Shown here: positions 33,574-63,014 of the stretch, piece after piece
How positions within the stretch are numbered: position 1 is the stretch's first letter
How the letters are laid out: the number at the start of each line of letters is the position of its first letter
DNA from: Rhizobium sp. 2MFCol3.1
Lineage (GTDB): Bacteria > Pseudomonadota > Alphaproteobacteria > Rhizobiales > Rhizobiaceae
NCBI RefSeq assembly: GCF_000377565.1
Contig: NZ_KB898357.1
Location: 124,001-188,000, forward strand
DNA length: 64,000 nucleotides
Reading direction: 5' to 3'
Notes under the pieces: model-generated
Told to the model about the DNA's origin: nothing
Seen by the model: the letters and a program-made list of their open reading frames with translations, nothing else
Database searches by the model: none
Program-made: the position numbers and the translations under genes

Positions 33574-34313
33574 TCAACGCCCTTGAACAGTCGATCCCAA
33601 CGCATGTTGGAAGGCCACTTCCAGATTTCGCGGAAGGAGGTGTCGTTGCCGAGCGAGAAGAAGATGACGCTGGCGCGGCCAACCAGATTTTCGGCCGGCA
33701 CGAAACCGACGTCGAAGCGGCTGTCGAGCGAGTTGTCGCGATTGTCGCCCATCATGAAGTAATGACCTTCCGGAACGATGAACTCGCGGGTGTTGTCGCC
33801 GCGCGATACCGGAGACTGGTCTAGCGTGTCGTAGGTCACGCCGTTGTCGAGGGTTTCGCGGAACACCGGAACGTCCTGGCCCGGATCCTGCGCGTAATCG
33901 GAGTTGAACGTACCATCCGGCACCTTCGGAACAGCCTTGCCGTTCACGTAGAGCACGCCGTCCGTCACCTGGATGTGGTCGCCCGGGAGACCGACGAGGC
34001 GCTTGATGTAATCGACCTCAGGATTCGGCGGGAAGCGGAAGACGACGACGTCGCCGCGCTTCGGCTCGCTGGCGAAGATGCGGCCGCTGAACAGGTTCGG
34101 CGAGAACGGCAGCGAGTATTTCGAATAGCCGTAAGCGAACTTGTTGACGAAGATATAGTCGCCGACGAGCAGCGTCGGCATCATCGAGCCCGAGGGAATG
34201 GTGAATGGCTGGAACAGGATCGTGCGGATGACCATCGCCAAGACGAGTGCCTGGACGATGACCTTGATGTTCTCCCAGAGGGCGTTCGGCTTGGCTTGAA
34301 CTTTTTCGGACAC
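33570..34313 (-). CDS. lepB: Signal peptidase I
   Basis: Inner-membrane serine protease that removes signal peptides from exported proteins. The 247-residue protein has one N-terminal membrane segment (about 18-35), the nucleophile S43 in IPSGSMMPTLL, the catalytic lysine K104 in DYIKRLVGLPGD, and the late GDNRDNSLDSR box. It overlaps rnc by four bases, a common alphaproteobacterial arrangement. Confidence 0.97.
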   Translation of the reverse strand: MSEKVQAKPNALWENIKVIVQALVLAMVIRTILFQPFTIPSGSMMPTLLVGDYIFVNKFAYGYSKYSLPFSPNLFSGRIFASEPKRGDVVVFRFPPNPEVDYIKRLVGLPGDHIQVTDGVLYVNGKAVPKVPDGTFNSDYAQDPGQDVPVFRETLDNGVTYDTLDQSPVSRGDNTREFIVPEGHYFMMGDNRDNSLDSRFDVGFVPAENLVGRASVIFFSLGNDTSFREIWKWPSNMRWDRLFKGVE

Positions 34314-47546: not shown

Positions 47547-47774
47547 TCAGGCGATCTCGATCCAGCGGCGCTGGTGATAGGACTCTGCCATGGCGTGAAC
47601 AGACTTTTCTATCCTAAGACCGTCTTCGAATGTGACCATCACCGACGGCTCACCGGAAATCGCACGTATGAGCTCGCGGCATTCGATGATCTTCAGATCG
47701 TTGAAGCCGAGGCCGTGACCCGGCGCGGGAATGAAGCGGCCGATGCCCAATGACTTCATGATATCCTCCCACTC
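47547..47774 (-). pseudogene. C-terminal remnant of a Gfo/Idh/MocA dehydrogenase
   Basis: Seventy codons from ATG 47759 encode what looks like the last fifth of a Gfo/Idh/MocA oxidoreductase: GRFIPAPGHGLGFNDLKIIE, then CRELIRAI, MVTFEDGLRIEKSVHAM and AESYHQRRWIEIA. Family resemblance continues upstream of the ATG through EWEDI until an in-frame TAG at 47775-47777. No N-terminal NAD-binding domain precedes it. The GGGAGG before the ATG is therefore more likely coding remnant than a true ribosome site. Being beside iolR suggests it was an inositol-related dehydrogenase. Confidence 0.7.
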
Positions 47775-47868: not shown

Positions 47869-47945
47869 ATTCCCCGCATAAAAAACAAATATGCCGGGGA
47901 ATGGAAATCATCTATGGTCGGGAAACTGGAATATACGTTTCATTT
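47869..47945. promoter_or_regulatory. iolR upstream regulatory region
   Basis: Contains an inverted repeat, ATTCCCCGCAT and ATGCCGGGGAAT, in 47874-47902, then GGAA-TATACG-TTTCATT at 47928-47944. The second motif recurs before iolC (48857-48873) with only the spacer changed. It lies 14 bases before the iolR ATG. An autoregulatory operator is inferred. Confidence 0.45.
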
Positions 47946-47957
47946 TCGGATCAGCAC

Positions 47958-48833
47958 ATGGACAACGACCCCAAGGCCCCCTCTCGCGTTCCCAGGGATT
48001 TCGAGAGCCTGCGCAGCACGATCATCGAGCGCAAGGCGACCATGCCGAAGCGGCTGGCGCAGGTGGCGGCCTTCGCGCTTGCCAATCCCGACGAGATCGC
48101 ATTCGGCACGACGGCAAGCATCGCGTCCGCTTCCGAGGTTCAGCCCTCGACGCTGGTGCGGCTTGCGCATCACCTGGGATATGAGGGCTTTTCCGACCTG
48201 CAAAGCATTTTTCGCGAGCGCCTGCGCGACCGGACGCTGACCTATGAAGAGCGGTTGGTGACGCTGGAGCAATCGGGCGGCGAGGACGAGGACGCCAATC
48301 TGCTTTCCGGCTTCATTTCGGCCGCCGGCCAATCGATCAACCGGCTGGCGGCGACCGTTCAGTCGGACACGTTCAGCAAGGCGGTCGATATTCTGGCGGC
48401 GGCCGACACCATCTATCTGATCGCCAAGCGCCGCTCCTATCCGCTGACGGCGCATATGAGTTACGCCTTCTCCAAGCTCAATATCCGCCACCAGATTGTC
48501 GCTTCTCCGAACGGAGTCGATGCCGAGACCGTCCAGTTCGCCACGCCGAAGGACGCGGCGATCGCGGCGAGTTTTTCGCCCTATGCCGCAGAGAGCCTCG
48601 GCCAGGCGGAGATGCTGAAGGAGCGCGGCGTGCCTGTTGTCGTCATCACCGATTCGGCCTTTTCGCCACTCGCCACCAGCGCTGCCTGCTGGTTCGAAGT
48701 GGCGGAGGCGGACTTTGCCGGCTTCCGTTCGCTTTCGGCCTCGATGGCGCTGACCATGGCGCTGCCGGTGGCGATCGCCGAGCGGCGGCGAAAGCTGGGG
48801 CAGCCAAAATCCAAAAAAGCAAAAATGGAATAA
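47958..48833 (+). CDS. iolR: MurR/RpiR family regulator, probable IolR
   Basis: A 291-residue regulator with an RpiR-type helix-turn-helix (about 1-85, AFGTTASIASASEVQPSTLV) and a SIS sugar-phosphate-binding domain (about 125-265, AADTIYLIAKRRSYPLTAHM). In rhizobia this type represses the inositol genes beside it. ATG 47958 starts MDNDPKAPSRVP; upstream in-frame ATG codons to 47805 are not supported because they lie in the operator region. It precedes the iol genes on the same strand. Confidence 0.88.
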   Translation: MDNDPKAPSRVPRDFESLRSTIIERKATMPKRLAQVAAFALANPDEIAFGTTASIASASEVQPSTLVRLAHHLGYEGFSDLQSIFRERLRDRTLTYEERLVTLEQSGGEDEDANLLSGFISAAGQSINRLAATVQSDTFSKAVDILAAADTIYLIAKRRSYPLTAHMSYAFSKLNIRHQIVASPNGVDAETVQFATPKDAAIAASFSPYAAESLGQAEMLKERGVPVVVITDSAFSPLATSAACWFEVAEADFAGFRSLSASMALTMALPVAIAERRRKLGQPKSKKAKME

Positions 48834-48843
48834 ACATTCTGAA

Positions 48844-48873
48844 TTGACATTCAAACGGAACCGATGTTTCATT
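48844..48873 (+). promoter_or_regulatory. Putative iolC promoter and IolR operator
   Basis: TTGACA at 48844-48849, then after 17 bases a weak -10 (TTTCAT) overlapping the motif GGAA-CCGATG-TTTCATT (48857-48873). The motif matches GGAA-N6-TTTCATT before iolR. A further GGAA-N6-TTCT lies at 48827-48840. A repressor bound here would cover the promoter. Confidence 0.5.
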
Positions 48874-48928: not shown

Positions 48929-50866
48929 ATGGCACTAACTCAACCGGGCGCGAATCCGGGGCTGCCGCTTGATGTGATCACCATCGGCCGCTCTTCGGTC
49001 GATCTCTATGGCCAGCAGATCGGTTCCAAACTCGAAAACATCGCGTCCTTCGCCAAGTCTGTCGGCGGCTGCCCGGCGAACATCGCGATCGGCACGGCGC
49101 GCCTCGGCCTGAAGTCGGGCCTGATAACCCGCGTCGGCGATGAGCAGATGGGCCGCTTCATTCGCGAGCAATCGGCACGCGAGGGGGTCGCAACCGACGG
49201 CATCGTGACCGACAAGGAGCGGCTGACTGCGCTGGTGCTTCTGGCGGTCGAGGCCGAAGGCGTCTCGCCGATGATCTTCTATCGTTCCGATTGCGCCGAC
49301 ATGGCGCTCGAAGAAGGCGATATCGACGAAGCCTATATAAAGTCGTCACGCGCGGTGCTGGTGTCGGGAACGCATTTCTCGCGGCCGAACACGGAAGCGG
49401 CGCAGCGGAAGGCGATCCGTATCGCCAAGGCCAACGGCCGCAAGGTGATCTTCGACATCGATTATCGTCCGAACCTCTGGGGTCTTGCCGGCCACGCGGA
49501 AGGCTTCGAGCGCTATGTGAAGTCGGACCGCGTGTCTTCGAAGATGAAGGAGACCCTGCCGGATTGCGACCTGATCGTCGGTACGGAAGAGGAAATCCTG
49601 ATCGCGTCCGGCGCCGACGACGTGCTCGGCGCGCTGAAGGAGATCCGCCGCCTGTCGCCCGCGACAATCGTCTTGAAGCGCGGCGCCATGGGCTGCATCG
49701 TCTATGACGGGCCGATCTCGGACGATCTCGAAGCCGGCATTGTCGGCGAAGGTTTTCCGATCGAGGTGTTCAACGTGCTGGGCGCCGGCGATGCCTTCAT
49801 GTCCGGCTTCCTACGGGGATGGCTGAAGGACGAGCCGCTGAAGACCTGCGCCACCTGGGCGAATGCCTGCGGCGCCTTCGCGGTCTCCCGCCTGCTCTGC
49901 TCTCCTGAATATCCGACCTGGGCGGAACTCGATTTCTTCCTGAAGAACGGCAGCAAGCATCGGGCGCTGCGCAAGGACGAGGCGATCAACCACATTCACT
50001 GGGCCTCGAACCGCAAGGGCGACATCCCGCTCCTCATGGCGCTCGCCATCGATCATCGTTCGCAGCTGACAAGCGTCTGCGACGAACTCGGCGTCGACTA
50101 CAAGCAGATCGTCGCCTTCAAGCGGCTGGCGGTGGAAGCTGCCGCCCGCGTCGCCGATGGCCGCAGCGGCTATGGGATGCTGATCGACGAGCGCTTCGGG
50201 CGCGACGCCTTTTTCGACGCGGCGACCAAGAATTTCGCCTGGATCGGGCGGCCCGTCGAACTGCCCGGCTCGAAGCCGCTGCGTTTCGAGTTCAGCCAGG
50301 ATATCGGCTCGCAGCTGGTCGAATGGCCGCTCGATCATTGCATCAAGTGCCTGTGCTTCTATCATCCCGACGATCCCGCAGAGCTGAAGAGCGAGCAGCA
50401 GGAGAAGCTGCGGACGCTGTTCGAGGCAGCGCGCAAGGTTGGCCGCGAGCTTTTGGTCGAGATCATCGCCAGCAAGAACGGGCCGCTCACCGACGACACC
50501 ATCTCGACGGCGATGGAAGAGCTCTATGCGCTCGGTATCAAGCCGGACTGGTGGAAGCTGGAACCGCAGGCATCGAGCGCGGCGTGGAAGAAAATCGACG
50601 CCGTCATCGCAAAGAACGACCCCTGGTGCCGCGGCATCGTGCTGCTCGGGCTGGAGGCGCCGGCGGATGAGCTGGTGAAGGGCTTCGAGGCGACGTTGGC
50701 AGCACCTTCGGTCAAGGGCTTTGCCGTGGGACGGACGATCTTTTCGGATGCGGCGCGGGCCTGGCTGTCGGGCAAGATCGATGACGAGCAGGCGGTGGCC
50801 GACATGGCCGGACGCTTCCGTGAACTGACCGAGGCGTGGTTGAAAACACGCGGGCTAGCTTCTTAA
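48929..50866 (+). CDS. iolC: Bifunctional 5-dehydro-2-deoxygluconokinase/aldolase (IolC-DUF2090)
   Basis: A 645-residue fusion in myo-inositol breakdown. The first half (about 1-335) is a PfkB-type kinase that phosphorylates 5-dehydro-2-deoxygluconate, with SVGGCPANIAIGTARLGLKS and the catalytic FNVLGAGDAFMSGFLRG. The second half (about 345-640) is DUF2090, with LLMALAIDHRSQLTSVC, an aldolase-like domain replacing a separate IolJ that yields dihydroxyacetone phosphate and malonate semialdehyde. ATG 48929 lies five bases after GGAGG; ATG 48926 is possible. It is followed by iolD after a GC-rich hairpin. Confidence 0.93.
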   Translation: MALTQPGANPGLPLDVITIGRSSVDLYGQQIGSKLENIASFAKSVGGCPANIAIGTARLGLKSGLITRVGDEQMGRFIREQSAREGVATDGIVTDKERLTALVLLAVEAEGVSPMIFYRSDCADMALEEGDIDEAYIKSSRAVLVSGTHFSRPNTEAAQRKAIRIAKANGRKVIFDIDYRPNLWGLAGHAEGFERYVKSDRVSSKMKETLPDCDLIVGTEEEILIASGADDVLGALKEIRRLSPATIVLKRGAMGCIVYDGPISDDLEAGIVGEGFPIEVFNVLGAGDAFMSGFLRGWLKDEPLKTCATWANACGAFAVSRLLCSPEYPTWAELDFFLKNGSKHRALRKDEAINHIHWASNRKGDIPLLMALAIDHRSQLTSVCDELGVDYKQIVAFKRLAVEAAARVADGRSGYGMLIDERFGRDAFFDAATKNFAWIGRPVELPGSKPLRFEFSQDIGSQLVEWPLDHCIKCLCFYHPDDPAELKSEQQEKLRTLFEAARKVGRELLVEIIASKNGPLTDDTISTAMEELYALGIKPDWWKLEPQASSAAWKKIDAVIAKNDPWCRGIVLLGLEAPADELVKGFEATLAAPSVKGFAVGRTIFSDAARAWLSGKIDDEQAVADMAGRFRELTEAWLKTRGLAS

Positions 50867-50952: not shown

Positions 50953-52803
<1,851 letters not shown>

Positions 52804-52978: not shown

Positions 52979-53899
52979 ATGAAAGCCAAACTTGGCATGT
53001 CGCCCATCGCGTGGTGGAACGACGATCTTCCGGAGCTCAGCGACGACGTATCGCTCGAGGAATGCCTGCGCCAATCGCGCGGCGCCGGCTTTACCGGCAT
53101 GGAACAGGGGCGCCGGTTCCCCAATAATCCTCGCGAGATGCTGCCAATCCTGAAGGCCGCCGACGTGACGCTGTGCGGGGGCTGGTTTTCTGGCACGCTC
53201 GTCGATGAGGAGCTTTCGGCCAACAAGGATCGCATCCAGCCGATGATCGAGCTGTTCAAGGCCGTCGATGCGCCCTGCATCGTCTATGGCGAGGTCGGCC
53301 GCTCGATCCAGGGCGATCGTTCCAAACCGCTTGCCACCAAGCCGAAGCTCGCGGACGACGAGATGAAGGCATATGCGCGCAAGGTCACGCAATTCGGCGA
53401 ATGGTGCGCGGAACAGGGCATGCCGCTTTCCTACCACCATCACATGGCGGCCGTGGTCGAGACAGAGCCGGAACTCGACGCCTTCATGCGCAATTCTGGC
53501 GCCGGCATTCCGCTGCTGCTCGACGCCGGCCACCTCGCCTTTGCCGGCGGCGACGTGCTGCGCGCCATCGACAATCACCACGCCCGCATCAACCACGTCC
53601 ACGTCAAGGACATCCGCAAGTCGGTGGTCGACGGTCTCGATCGCAGCCGGCAGTCCTTCCTCGACGCCGTGGCGCTCGGCGCCTTCACGGTGCCGGGTGA
53701 CGGGTCGCTCGATTTCGGGGCGATTGTGAAGCGTTTTGCCGATTACGGCTACGAGGGCTGGTTCGTCGTCGAGGCCGAGCAGGACCCACGCAAGGCGCCG
53801 CCGCAGAAGATGGCGGAGATCGGTCACGCCGAACTGATGCGGGTGATGACGGCTGCCGGATATACGGTGGAGACGGAAGGGTTTCCGAAGGGGGCTTGA
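52979..53899 (+). CDS. iolE: myo-Inosose-2 dehydratase
   Basis: Dehydrates scyllo-inosose to the diketone used by IolD. The 306-residue TIM barrel of the xylose-isomerase-like superfamily starts MKAKLGMSPIAWWNDDLPEL. It has SRGAGFTGMEQGRRFPN near residue 35, YHHHMAAVVETEPELDAFM, LLLDAGHLAFAGGD and NHVHVKDIR, carrying metal ligands. GAGGAG lies eight bases before the ATG. Palindromic repeats flank it on both sides. Confidence 0.96.
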   Translation: MKAKLGMSPIAWWNDDLPELSDDVSLEECLRQSRGAGFTGMEQGRRFPNNPREMLPILKAADVTLCGGWFSGTLVDEELSANKDRIQPMIELFKAVDAPCIVYGEVGRSIQGDRSKPLATKPKLADDEMKAYARKVTQFGEWCAEQGMPLSYHHHMAAVVETEPELDAFMRNSGAGIPLLLDAGHLAFAGGDVLRAIDNHHARINHVHVKDIRKSVVDGLDRSRQSFLDAVALGAFTVPGDGSLDFGAIVKRFADYGYEGWFVVEAEQDPRKAPPQKMAEIGHAELMRVMTAAGYTVETEGFPKGA

Positions 53900-54091: not shown

Positions 54092-54889
54092 ATGCCAAAC
54101 CTCAAAGTCAAACCAACAGGCACACACGGCCGCGTCACCCATGTCACGCCCGAGAGCGCCGGCTGGACCTATGTCGGCTTCGACATGCACCGGCTGAAAC
54201 CAGGCGAGACCGTGTCCGGCGAAACCGGCGAGCGCGAGGTGTGCTTGGTCTGGGTGAGCGGCAAGGGCAAGGCCAGCGCCGGCACGCGTGACTTCGGCAC
54301 GCTCGGCGAGCGGATGAGCCCGTTCGATGGGGCGCCGCATGCGCTTTACATCCCAATGGAATCGGCATGGTCGGTGACGGCCGAGACCGATCTGGAGCTG
54401 GCGGTCTGCTCGGCGCCGGGCGGTGGCGCCTACGAGGCGAAGGCGATCCCGCCGGGCACGCATCCGGCGCTGACGCGCGGCAAGGGCACCAATGTGCGCT
54501 ACGTCAACAACATCATGCCCGAGGATGACGCATCGGCCTATTCGCTGCTCGTCGTCGAGGTGATCACGCCGGGCGGGCATACCTCTTCCTACCCGCCGCA
54601 CAAGCACGACCAGGACAATCTGCCGAACGAGAGCTTCCTTGAGGAGACCTATTATCACCGCCTGAACCCACCACAGGGTTTCGGCTTCCAGCGCGTCTAT
54701 ACCGACGACCGGTCGCTCGACGAGGCGATGGTGCTCGAAGATGGCGACGTGACGCTGGTGCCGAAGGGGTATCACCCCTGCGCTGCCACCCACGGCTACG
54801 ATCTCTACTATCTCAACGTGATGGCTGGCCCGAAGCGCGTCTGGAAGTTCTACAACGCGCCGGAGCATGAATGGCTGCTCAAGGCCTGA
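54092..54889 (+). CDS. iolB: 5-Deoxy-glucuronate isomerase
   Basis: Converts 5-deoxy-glucuronate to 5-dehydro-2-deoxygluconate, the substrate of IolC. The 265-residue bicupin has the metal site in TSSYPPHKHDQDN, EETYYHRLNPPQGFGFQRVY and GYHPCAATHGYDLYYLNVM. It is the last gene of the iol unit; a strong terminator follows by 19 bases. GAGGAG precedes the ATG. Confidence 0.96.
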   Translation: MPNLKVKPTGTHGRVTHVTPESAGWTYVGFDMHRLKPGETVSGETGEREVCLVWVSGKGKASAGTRDFGTLGERMSPFDGAPHALYIPMESAWSVTAETDLELAVCSAPGGGAYEAKAIPPGTHPALTRGKGTNVRYVNNIMPEDDASAYSLLVVEVITPGGHTSSYPPHKHDQDNLPNESFLEETYYHRLNPPQGFGFQRVYTDDRSLDEAMVLEDGDVTLVPKGYHPCAATHGYDLYYLNVMAGPKRVWKFYNAPEHEWLLKA

Positions 54890-62051: not shown

Positions 62052-63014
62052 TCACGCGGGGCGACGGCGACCGAACGGCAAGGAGATTGCCGTTCCCGTG
62101 AGCGCGGAAACGATGATCAGCAGATGGGCATTGATGCTTGCACGGGCGAGTGCCGCAATATCGGCGGCATCGCTCGATGCGCCGAAGGCAACGGCGCCAG
62201 CCGTGATGCCCGCCGGATAGGTGCCGACACCGCCAGGGGCATGCATCGGCAGCACCGACGACAGCTCGCCGCCGAGCGCGCCGCCGAAGCTCGCAGCCGC
62301 CGGCACCACGCCCATCAGCCGCAGCGCCCAGGCAAGCACCAGCACCTTCACCAGCCAATTGATGACGGTCATCGCCCAAGCCCGCGCGAAGGCTGAAGCA
62401 TTGGCGGGCAGACCATTTTCGACCTCGGCGACGAAGTGTTGCAGCTTCGCAGGCAGGAGCTTCGCAGCAAGGCGCACCAGCGGTTTGCGCGCCGCGAACG
62501 CTGCGACCGGCAGCAGCAGGAACGCGGTCCAGAGAAGCCATGCCACCAGCCTGTGCGACGACGCGATGGCGAAGCCGATGCCGGCAGCCGCGAACAACGC
62601 ATGAAGATCGAGCAGACGCATGACGAGCAGCGCCGCCGTTCCGCGCGCCAGCGGGATGCCGAACTCGGTGCGCATCAACAATGGAAAGCTGGTTTCGCCG
62701 GTTCGAAACGGCAGCATGATGTTCAAGAGATTATGAACCTGCGTGACACGAAAGAGCGCCGGGAAACGGCCGCTGGTTTCGCGCGGGAAGTAATCGTATA
62801 TGCGCCAGGTGCGCAGAAAATAGGTGCTGGTCAAAAGCGCCAGAGCGGCAACGATCGTCAGCGCGCCGACCTCGGCCCATTGCGTAAGAATGGTCGACCA
62901 GCCCCAGAACCACTCGATAAAGCCGGCATAGGCCGCGATGATGAAAACCGTGAGCAGCAGCATTCGATTGCGTGCGAACCAGGATTGTCGGCTGGCAACC
63001 ACCGGAGACTTCAT
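62052..63014 (-). CDS. Lysylphosphatidylglycerol synthase-like membrane protein (UPF0104)
   Basis: A 320-residue integral membrane protein with about eight segments, of the LPG synthetase transmembrane (flippase-like) family. It has LLNIMLPFRTGETSFPLLMR, GTAALLVMRLLDLHALFAAA and SVLPMHAPGGVGTYPAG. The aminoacyl-transfer domain of full MprF is absent, so a lipid-handling role is inferred. It is divergent from a GT2 glycosyltransferase gene, with 66 bases between the starts. Confidence 0.85.
   Translation of the reverse strand: MKSPVVASRQSWFARNRMLLLTVFIIAAYAGFIEWFWGWSTILTQWAEVGALTIVAALALLTSTYFLRTWRIYDYFPRETSGRFPALFRVTQVHNLLNIMLPFRTGETSFPLLMRTEFGIPLARGTAALLVMRLLDLHALFAAAGIGFAIASSHRLVAWLLWTAFLLLPVAAFAARKPLVRLAAKLLPAKLQHFVAEVENGLPANASAFARAWAMTVINWLVKVLVLAWALRLMGVVPAAASFGGALGGELSSVLPMHAPGGVGTYPAGITAGAVAFGASSDAADIAALARASINAHLLIIVSALTGTAISLPFGRRRPA

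Follow-up and report, generated by a model that had tools for sequence, protein, structure and literature searches.

Candidate IolR operators and a predicted two-operator iolC promoter in the inositol locus of Rhizobium sp. 2MFCol3.1

The iolC promoter of Rhizobium sp. 2MFCol3.1, as read from its sequence, is a two-operator cassette in which the downstream operator, S2, contains the predicted -10 element. A motif shared by the promoters of iolR and iolC had been put forward, in a sequence-only reading of the same DNA, as a natural candidate for the IolR operator. That proposal is backed by the position of the motif, its conservation and its presence at other inositol genes, and we consider it very probable that both copies serve as operators for IolR, the RpiR-family repressor encoded next to them. 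Features of the window, meaning the whole stretch of 64,000 nucleotides that was analysed, are collected in the table.

IolR carries HTH_6 and SIS domains, and iolCDEB lie directly downstream of iolR, indicating an IolR of the RpiR type. The IolR proteins of Rhizobium metallidurans and several other isolates are 99-100% identical to that of the window. Within its own genome IolR was the sole match at E<=1e-40 (8 of 18 first-look candidates scored). The Gfo/Idh gene divergent from iolR is internally deleted in Rhizobium sp. 2MFCol3.1: its own start codon and first 7 residues are fused in frame to its last 63 residues, and the remnant matches positions 327-386 of NF052479 with a score under the cut-off. 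The full-length protein has 371 residues, and at least 364 residues were aligned in 78 of 80 relatives; the exceptions are L032, with the same joint as the window, and L038, with a different fragment. An intact copy lies near 11.9-13.0 kb of C3, beside a transporter that bears an IolR-type site.

Table. Genes and predicted regulatory elements of the inositol locus (positions in the window).
Feature	Position	Strand	Description and basis
Gfo/Idh-family gene remnant, divergent from iolR	47547..47759	-	70 codons; translation and profile match
TATGGT, predicted weak -10-like element of iolR	47913..47918	+	no clear -35; inferred
S1, iolR leader	47926..47943	+	18-mer CTGGAATATACGTTTCAT; core 47928-47941
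iolR	47958..48833	+	RpiR-family regulator, 291 aa; HTH_6 (PF01418) and SIS (PF01380), both above cut-off
S3, overlaps iolR stop codon	48825..48842	+	18-mer ATGGAATAAACATTCTGA; core 48827-48840
TTGACA, predicted iolC -35, between S3 and S2	48844..48849	+	invariant (81/81; 30 non-redundant sequences)
S2, over predicted iolC -10	48855..48872	+	18-mer ACGGAACCGATGTTTCAT; core 48857-48870
iolC	48929..50866	+	bifunctional kinase/aldolase; NF047869 above cut-off
iolD	50953..52803	+	TIGR04377 above cut-off
iolE	52979..53899	+	TIGR04379 above cut-off
iolB	54092..54889	+	TIGR04378 above cut-off

The two copies of the motif are exact. One, GGAATATACGTTTCATT at 47928-47944, ends 13 bases before the iolR start codon (47958), and the other, GGAACCGATGTTTCATT at 48857-48873, lies upstream of iolC (48929). 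The second copy was said to overlap the -10 region of a TTGACA-N17 promoter, and indeed 17 bases separate TTGACA (48844-48849) from TTTCAT (48867-48872). Counts of the motif are by themselves weak evidence, as the pattern is not specific. With up to one mismatch the window held 2 matches, both exact, versus 0.73 expected, and 16 of 100 shuffled windows attained 2. The exact pattern occurred 5 times in the 6.55-Mb genome versus about 3 expected by uniform-base arithmetic; the 3 further matches sit in open frames that we read as LysR-like, cytochrome c-like and TadG-like. Allowing up to one mismatch gave 69 genome matches, versus 24 for the reversed pattern. The case thus rests on position and conservation.

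A third site, S3 (GGAATAAACATTCT at 48827-48840), missing from the sequence-only reading, lies just upstream of TTGACA. S1, S2 and S3 were each kept in 81/81 loci, comprising the window and the best 80 of 105 relatives (78 Rhizobium or unassigned Rhizobiales/Rhizobiaceae and 2 Shinella), with GGAA invariant at all three. In the window the 6-base spacing is exact and GGAA perfect at S1-S3, and the right half reads TTTC at S1 and S2 and TTCT at S3. The operator as described earlier needed correction: both sites noted then have TTTC rather than TTCC as right half, and the number of operators at iolC is two instead of one. Across the 81 loci the right half of S3 is TTCC in 70 and that of S1 in 2. 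In 30 non-redundant sequences the half-sites reach 1.9-2.0 bits per base and the -35 box 2.0, against 0.87 for the 7-base spacer after TTGACA and 0.41 for the 25 bases past the cassette. The inner 6 bases of S2 reach 1.54 bits, so conservation extends beyond the half-sites. S3 with its flanks is mostly invariant in the same sequences, partly because the region includes the end of iolR.

An open frame traverses S1 in the window. Among the 81 loci S1 precedes the start of iolR by 16, 17, 18, 24 or 29 to 34 bases, a variation that does not go by threes, indicating that S1 lies in a non-coding leader. The TATGGT element of iolR reads TATGCT or TATCGT in relatives and is absent from the promoter scanner output. 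More distant genera often have TTCC at the iolR-side site, ATGGAACAGGCATTCCAT being one example; among the close relatives the TTTC form at S1 is simply conserved, without the -10 reason seen at iolC. A promoter of the general stress factor RpoE2 has been proposed over the iolR-side site of E. aridi (PMC8877191, as excerpted), and inspection by eye found none over S1.

At iolC, S3 and S2 lie 30 bp apart, centre to centre, with TTGACA between them and the S3 core three bases before it. TTTCAT, the right end of S2, agrees with TATAAT at 4/6 positions, and its doubling as the predicted -10 would explain why S2 reads TTTC rather than TTCC. The promoter scanner accepts only A as the second base of a -10 and so does not list TTGACA/TTTCAT; its one other promoter-like site is at 47811-47783 on the minus strand. 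The cassette pattern with up to two mismatches was present in 146 of the 148 genomes of the genus, matches being counted genome-wide, and its reversed control gave 0 matches in the rows listed. IolR relatives occurred in 86 of the 297 genomes of the order. Of the best 30 loci taken, 26 lie outside the genus, and 14 of these have two sites 29 or 30 bp apart downstream of iolR, 10 have one site and 2 have none (score 11 or more); a simple text pattern left iolC downstream unrecognised in 5 of the 26. Among the abstract openings listed, none mentions a 30-bp double operator.

To score operators elsewhere we used a symmetric matrix trained on S1-S3 of iolR and iolC only, with the N6 ignored. Scores of S1-S3 themselves are circular, these being training sites, and the independent tests are idhA, a transporter and a second cassette on C4 only. 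In the background, 280 kb of the own genome (14 stretches), a single place reached a score of 14. Upstream of idhA (C2:243722-244705; above the TIGR04380 cut-off) the matrix found ATGGAATGAAAATTCCAC, a perfect GGAA-N6-TTCC with a score of 17.1, and the C2 stretch has one more place, L174:11552, scoring 14.07. An ABC binding-protein gene at C3:7685, followed by ATPase and permease genes, has an operator scoring 20.65. Among 30 ABC sugar-binding protein genes scanned (of 49 genome matches), 2 scored 14 or more, C3:7685 and C4:153121. In the window itself, 33607-33624 and 62681-62698, both away from the iol genes, score above 15 and are probably chance matches.

Relatives keep these sites. Sixty genomes of the genus were covered, that of our strain among them, and in their best 30 loci the idhA site occurs in 30/30 (TTCT in L278); 28 score 13 or more, and L288 and L295 fall under only through a flanking base, TGGAATGAAAATTCCA being present. 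The C3 transporter site is present in 29/30 and absent from L317; 28 of 30 had a hit scoring 13 or more, the hit in L302 being another place than the site, and for L298 and L302, at contig ends, the site was confirmed by sequence. TTGACG stands 15 bases before the site in five sequences, four at idhA (L112, L287, L288, L295) and one at the transporter (L316). The motif recurs at other inositol promoters, as the proposal required: it is found at idhA, as ATGGAATGAAAATTCC, and at the ABC sugar-transporter operon, as ATGGAATGAATATTTC. iolA (C4:368781) has no operator in the matrix scan. Likewise, the scan found no operator at C3:21938 or C1:235711, both above the TIGR04380 cut-off. With no site at iolA or at these two idhA-family paralogues, coverage of the inositol genes is incomplete. 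The C3 paralogue (C3:21938-22918) is 99% identical in protein to idhA on C2, and only the C2 copy has the site; control by IolR may thus not extend to the C3 copy. Together, the motif is found in the promoters of iolR, iolC, idhA and an ABC sugar transporter, and it is conserved at the same promoters in relatives.

The general two-site pattern matched the genome exactly at just two places, one at iolC and the other at C4:154308-154351 (minus strand). The two cassettes are identical at 38 of 44 bases, with TTGACATTCA common to both, and the operators before the C4 binding-protein gene (C4:153121) score 18.0 and 15.2. On one side the C4 cassette is flanked by an L-fucose mutarotase-like gene (131 bits, under the 141 cut-off), upstream of which lie an aldo/keto reductase gene and a galactarate/altronate dehydratase-family gene, and on the other side by the ABC transporter operon. 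The best structural matches of the C4 and C3 binding proteins are 4rxt and 4yo7, respectively; the solved structures matched by the C3 protein also include 4irx. We take 4irx and 4yo7 to be myo-inositol complexes. A second cassette match occurs in 13 other genomes of the 148 in the genus. In the 12 of these that were fetched, both neighbours are the same in 12/12 and the binding protein is 91-100% identical. The operators are largely kept in the twelve genomes, and the seven-base spacer drifts. TTGCAT replaces TTTCAT in 3 of the 12 (L260, L262 and L263); L262 lacks GGAA at this site as well, and the upstream site of L259 reads AGAA.

As the sole match of its kind in the genome among the candidates scored, IolR is the natural candidate regulator of the C4 cassette. 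We tentatively propose, at somewhat less than an even chance, that GGAA-N6-TTYY, TTGACA and GGAA-N6-TTTCAT at iolC, with 30 bp between the operator centres, make up a portable two-operator module serving as an IolR two-site switch, of which a near-copy puts the ABC sugar transporter of an L-fucose-like cluster under inositol control. If this is true, the C4 transporter would import inositol or a related compound, or two sugar pathways would be wired together.

The comparisons that follow draw on excerpts of the cited papers. The rhizobial consensus named in the sequence-only reading, GGAA-N6-TTCC, was correct: it is published, with IolR as repressor, for inositol genes of several alpha-proteobacteria, upstream of iolC, idhA and ibpA (Boutte et al. 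2008, PMC2597717), where the motif as written is found together with IolR. S1 differs from the Caulobacter consensus GGAANATNCGTTCCA by one change, and once its right half is given a Y (GGAANATNCGTTYCA) that consensus has a single 0-mismatch match in the genome, S1. Caulobacter crescentus, according to the same excerpts, resembles our strain in having an RpiR-type IolR beside iolC, the palindrome at iolC, idhA and an ABC transporter, and two motifs before iolC. It differs in the spacing of those motifs (~59 bp, at 104-119 and 45-60 upstream of the start, versus 30 here), in a motif before iolA, where the matrix scan found no site here, and in iolR, which has its own site here, unlike in Caulobacter (PMC2597717).

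The IolR sites described for E. aridi belong to idhA, iolY, iolR, iolC and a transporter; in S. meliloti, as here, they lie upstream of iolR and iolC, and there also of iolY, with a late pathway intermediate as inducer (PMC8877191, as excerpted). The neighbour upstream of iolR is iolY in S. meliloti, in contrast to the divergent, broken Gfo/Idh gene here. The S. meliloti IolR study of Kohler et al. 2011 is said to place an IolR site at idhA as well, and reportedly describes iolY, an inositol-dehydrogenase-like gene, as forming one operon with iolR, iolC and the following genes.

From the sequences, their positions, their conservation and their co-occurrence with inositol genes we infer binding, repression, an effector and a tetramer, as follows. 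Each near-palindrome of 18 bp, ATGGAA-N6-TTYCAT, would be occupied by one IolR dimer; RpiR dimers contact near-palindromic sites of this length via the HTH domain, and SIS-domain tetramers can bridge DNA sites (PMC12713135, as excerpted). Lying in the iolR leader, S1 would let IolR limit its own synthesis by autorepression. S3 and S2, about three helical turns apart around the iolC -35, would act as a cooperative pair, perhaps held by one IolR tetramer, and since S2 includes the -10, a dimer bound there would block RNA polymerase. The operators of idhA and the C3 transporter too may overlap the -10 region. A late pathway intermediate, 2-keto-5-deoxygluconate 6-phosphate, would release IolR; S. 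meliloti work cited in PMC8877191, as excerpted, names it as effector.

We examined whether the sites could be explained otherwise. TTTCAT might be a mere -10 promoter element, with the GGAA part shared by chance, and at iolC its place 17 bases past TTGACA fits this. At iolR, however, the TTTCAT end is conserved with no -35 visible at the right distance and downstream of another -10-like element. Moreover, GGAA is invariant at all three sites in 81/81 loci and the palindrome is present at idhA and the transporter too, making this explanation highly improbable. We give just as little credence to binding by another regulator, e.g. a further protein of the RpiR family or one of LacI type such as the inositol regulator predicted in R. 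etli. The excerpts of PMC8877191 do mention an inositol regulator of LacI type for both R. etli and E. aridi, but IolR stands alone in its genome at E<=1e-40 among the candidates scored (8/18), and Caulobacter genetics, as excerpted, tie GGAA-N6-TTCC to the RpiR-type IolR (PMC2597717).

Some weight, on the side of the unlikely, goes to a two-site switch in which IolR activates iolC from S3, directly upstream of the -35, and represses it from S2. S3 adjoins the -35, a place from which an activator can contact the polymerase; in E. aridi, iolC is not transcribed properly unless IolR is present (PMC8877191); and activation from a second site beside the promoter has been proposed for the RpiR protein SpNanR (PMC12713135), all as excerpted. 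SpNanR activates its operon, and its binding sites differ in sequence from those here (PMC12713135). Against activation, the excerpts of PMC2597717 report that Caulobacter iolC is derepressed by iolR deletion and by mutation of the upstream motif, motif 1, a loose comparison given the spacing of ~59 bp there. Repression by IolR is the reading we prefer. It is uncertain that each site acts by simple repression, given that the E. aridi iolR mutant showed raised transcription of iolR and not of iolC (PMC8877191) and that in complex medium a mutated Caulobacter motif 2 made no difference (PMC2597717), again as excerpted.

The switch described here is of a known kind and largely ordinary; the additions are the overlooked third site and the near-copy of the double-site promoter. 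Inositol use has been linked to rhizobial competition for root nodules, to judge by the title of Kohler et al. 2010, cited in PMC8877191. The outcome is a precise map of predicted operators for a genus-wide promoter, in which the TTTCAT right half at iolC would be accounted for by its double role as predicted -10. Furthermore, one more transporter promoter, probably controlled by IolR, is now named and directly testable.
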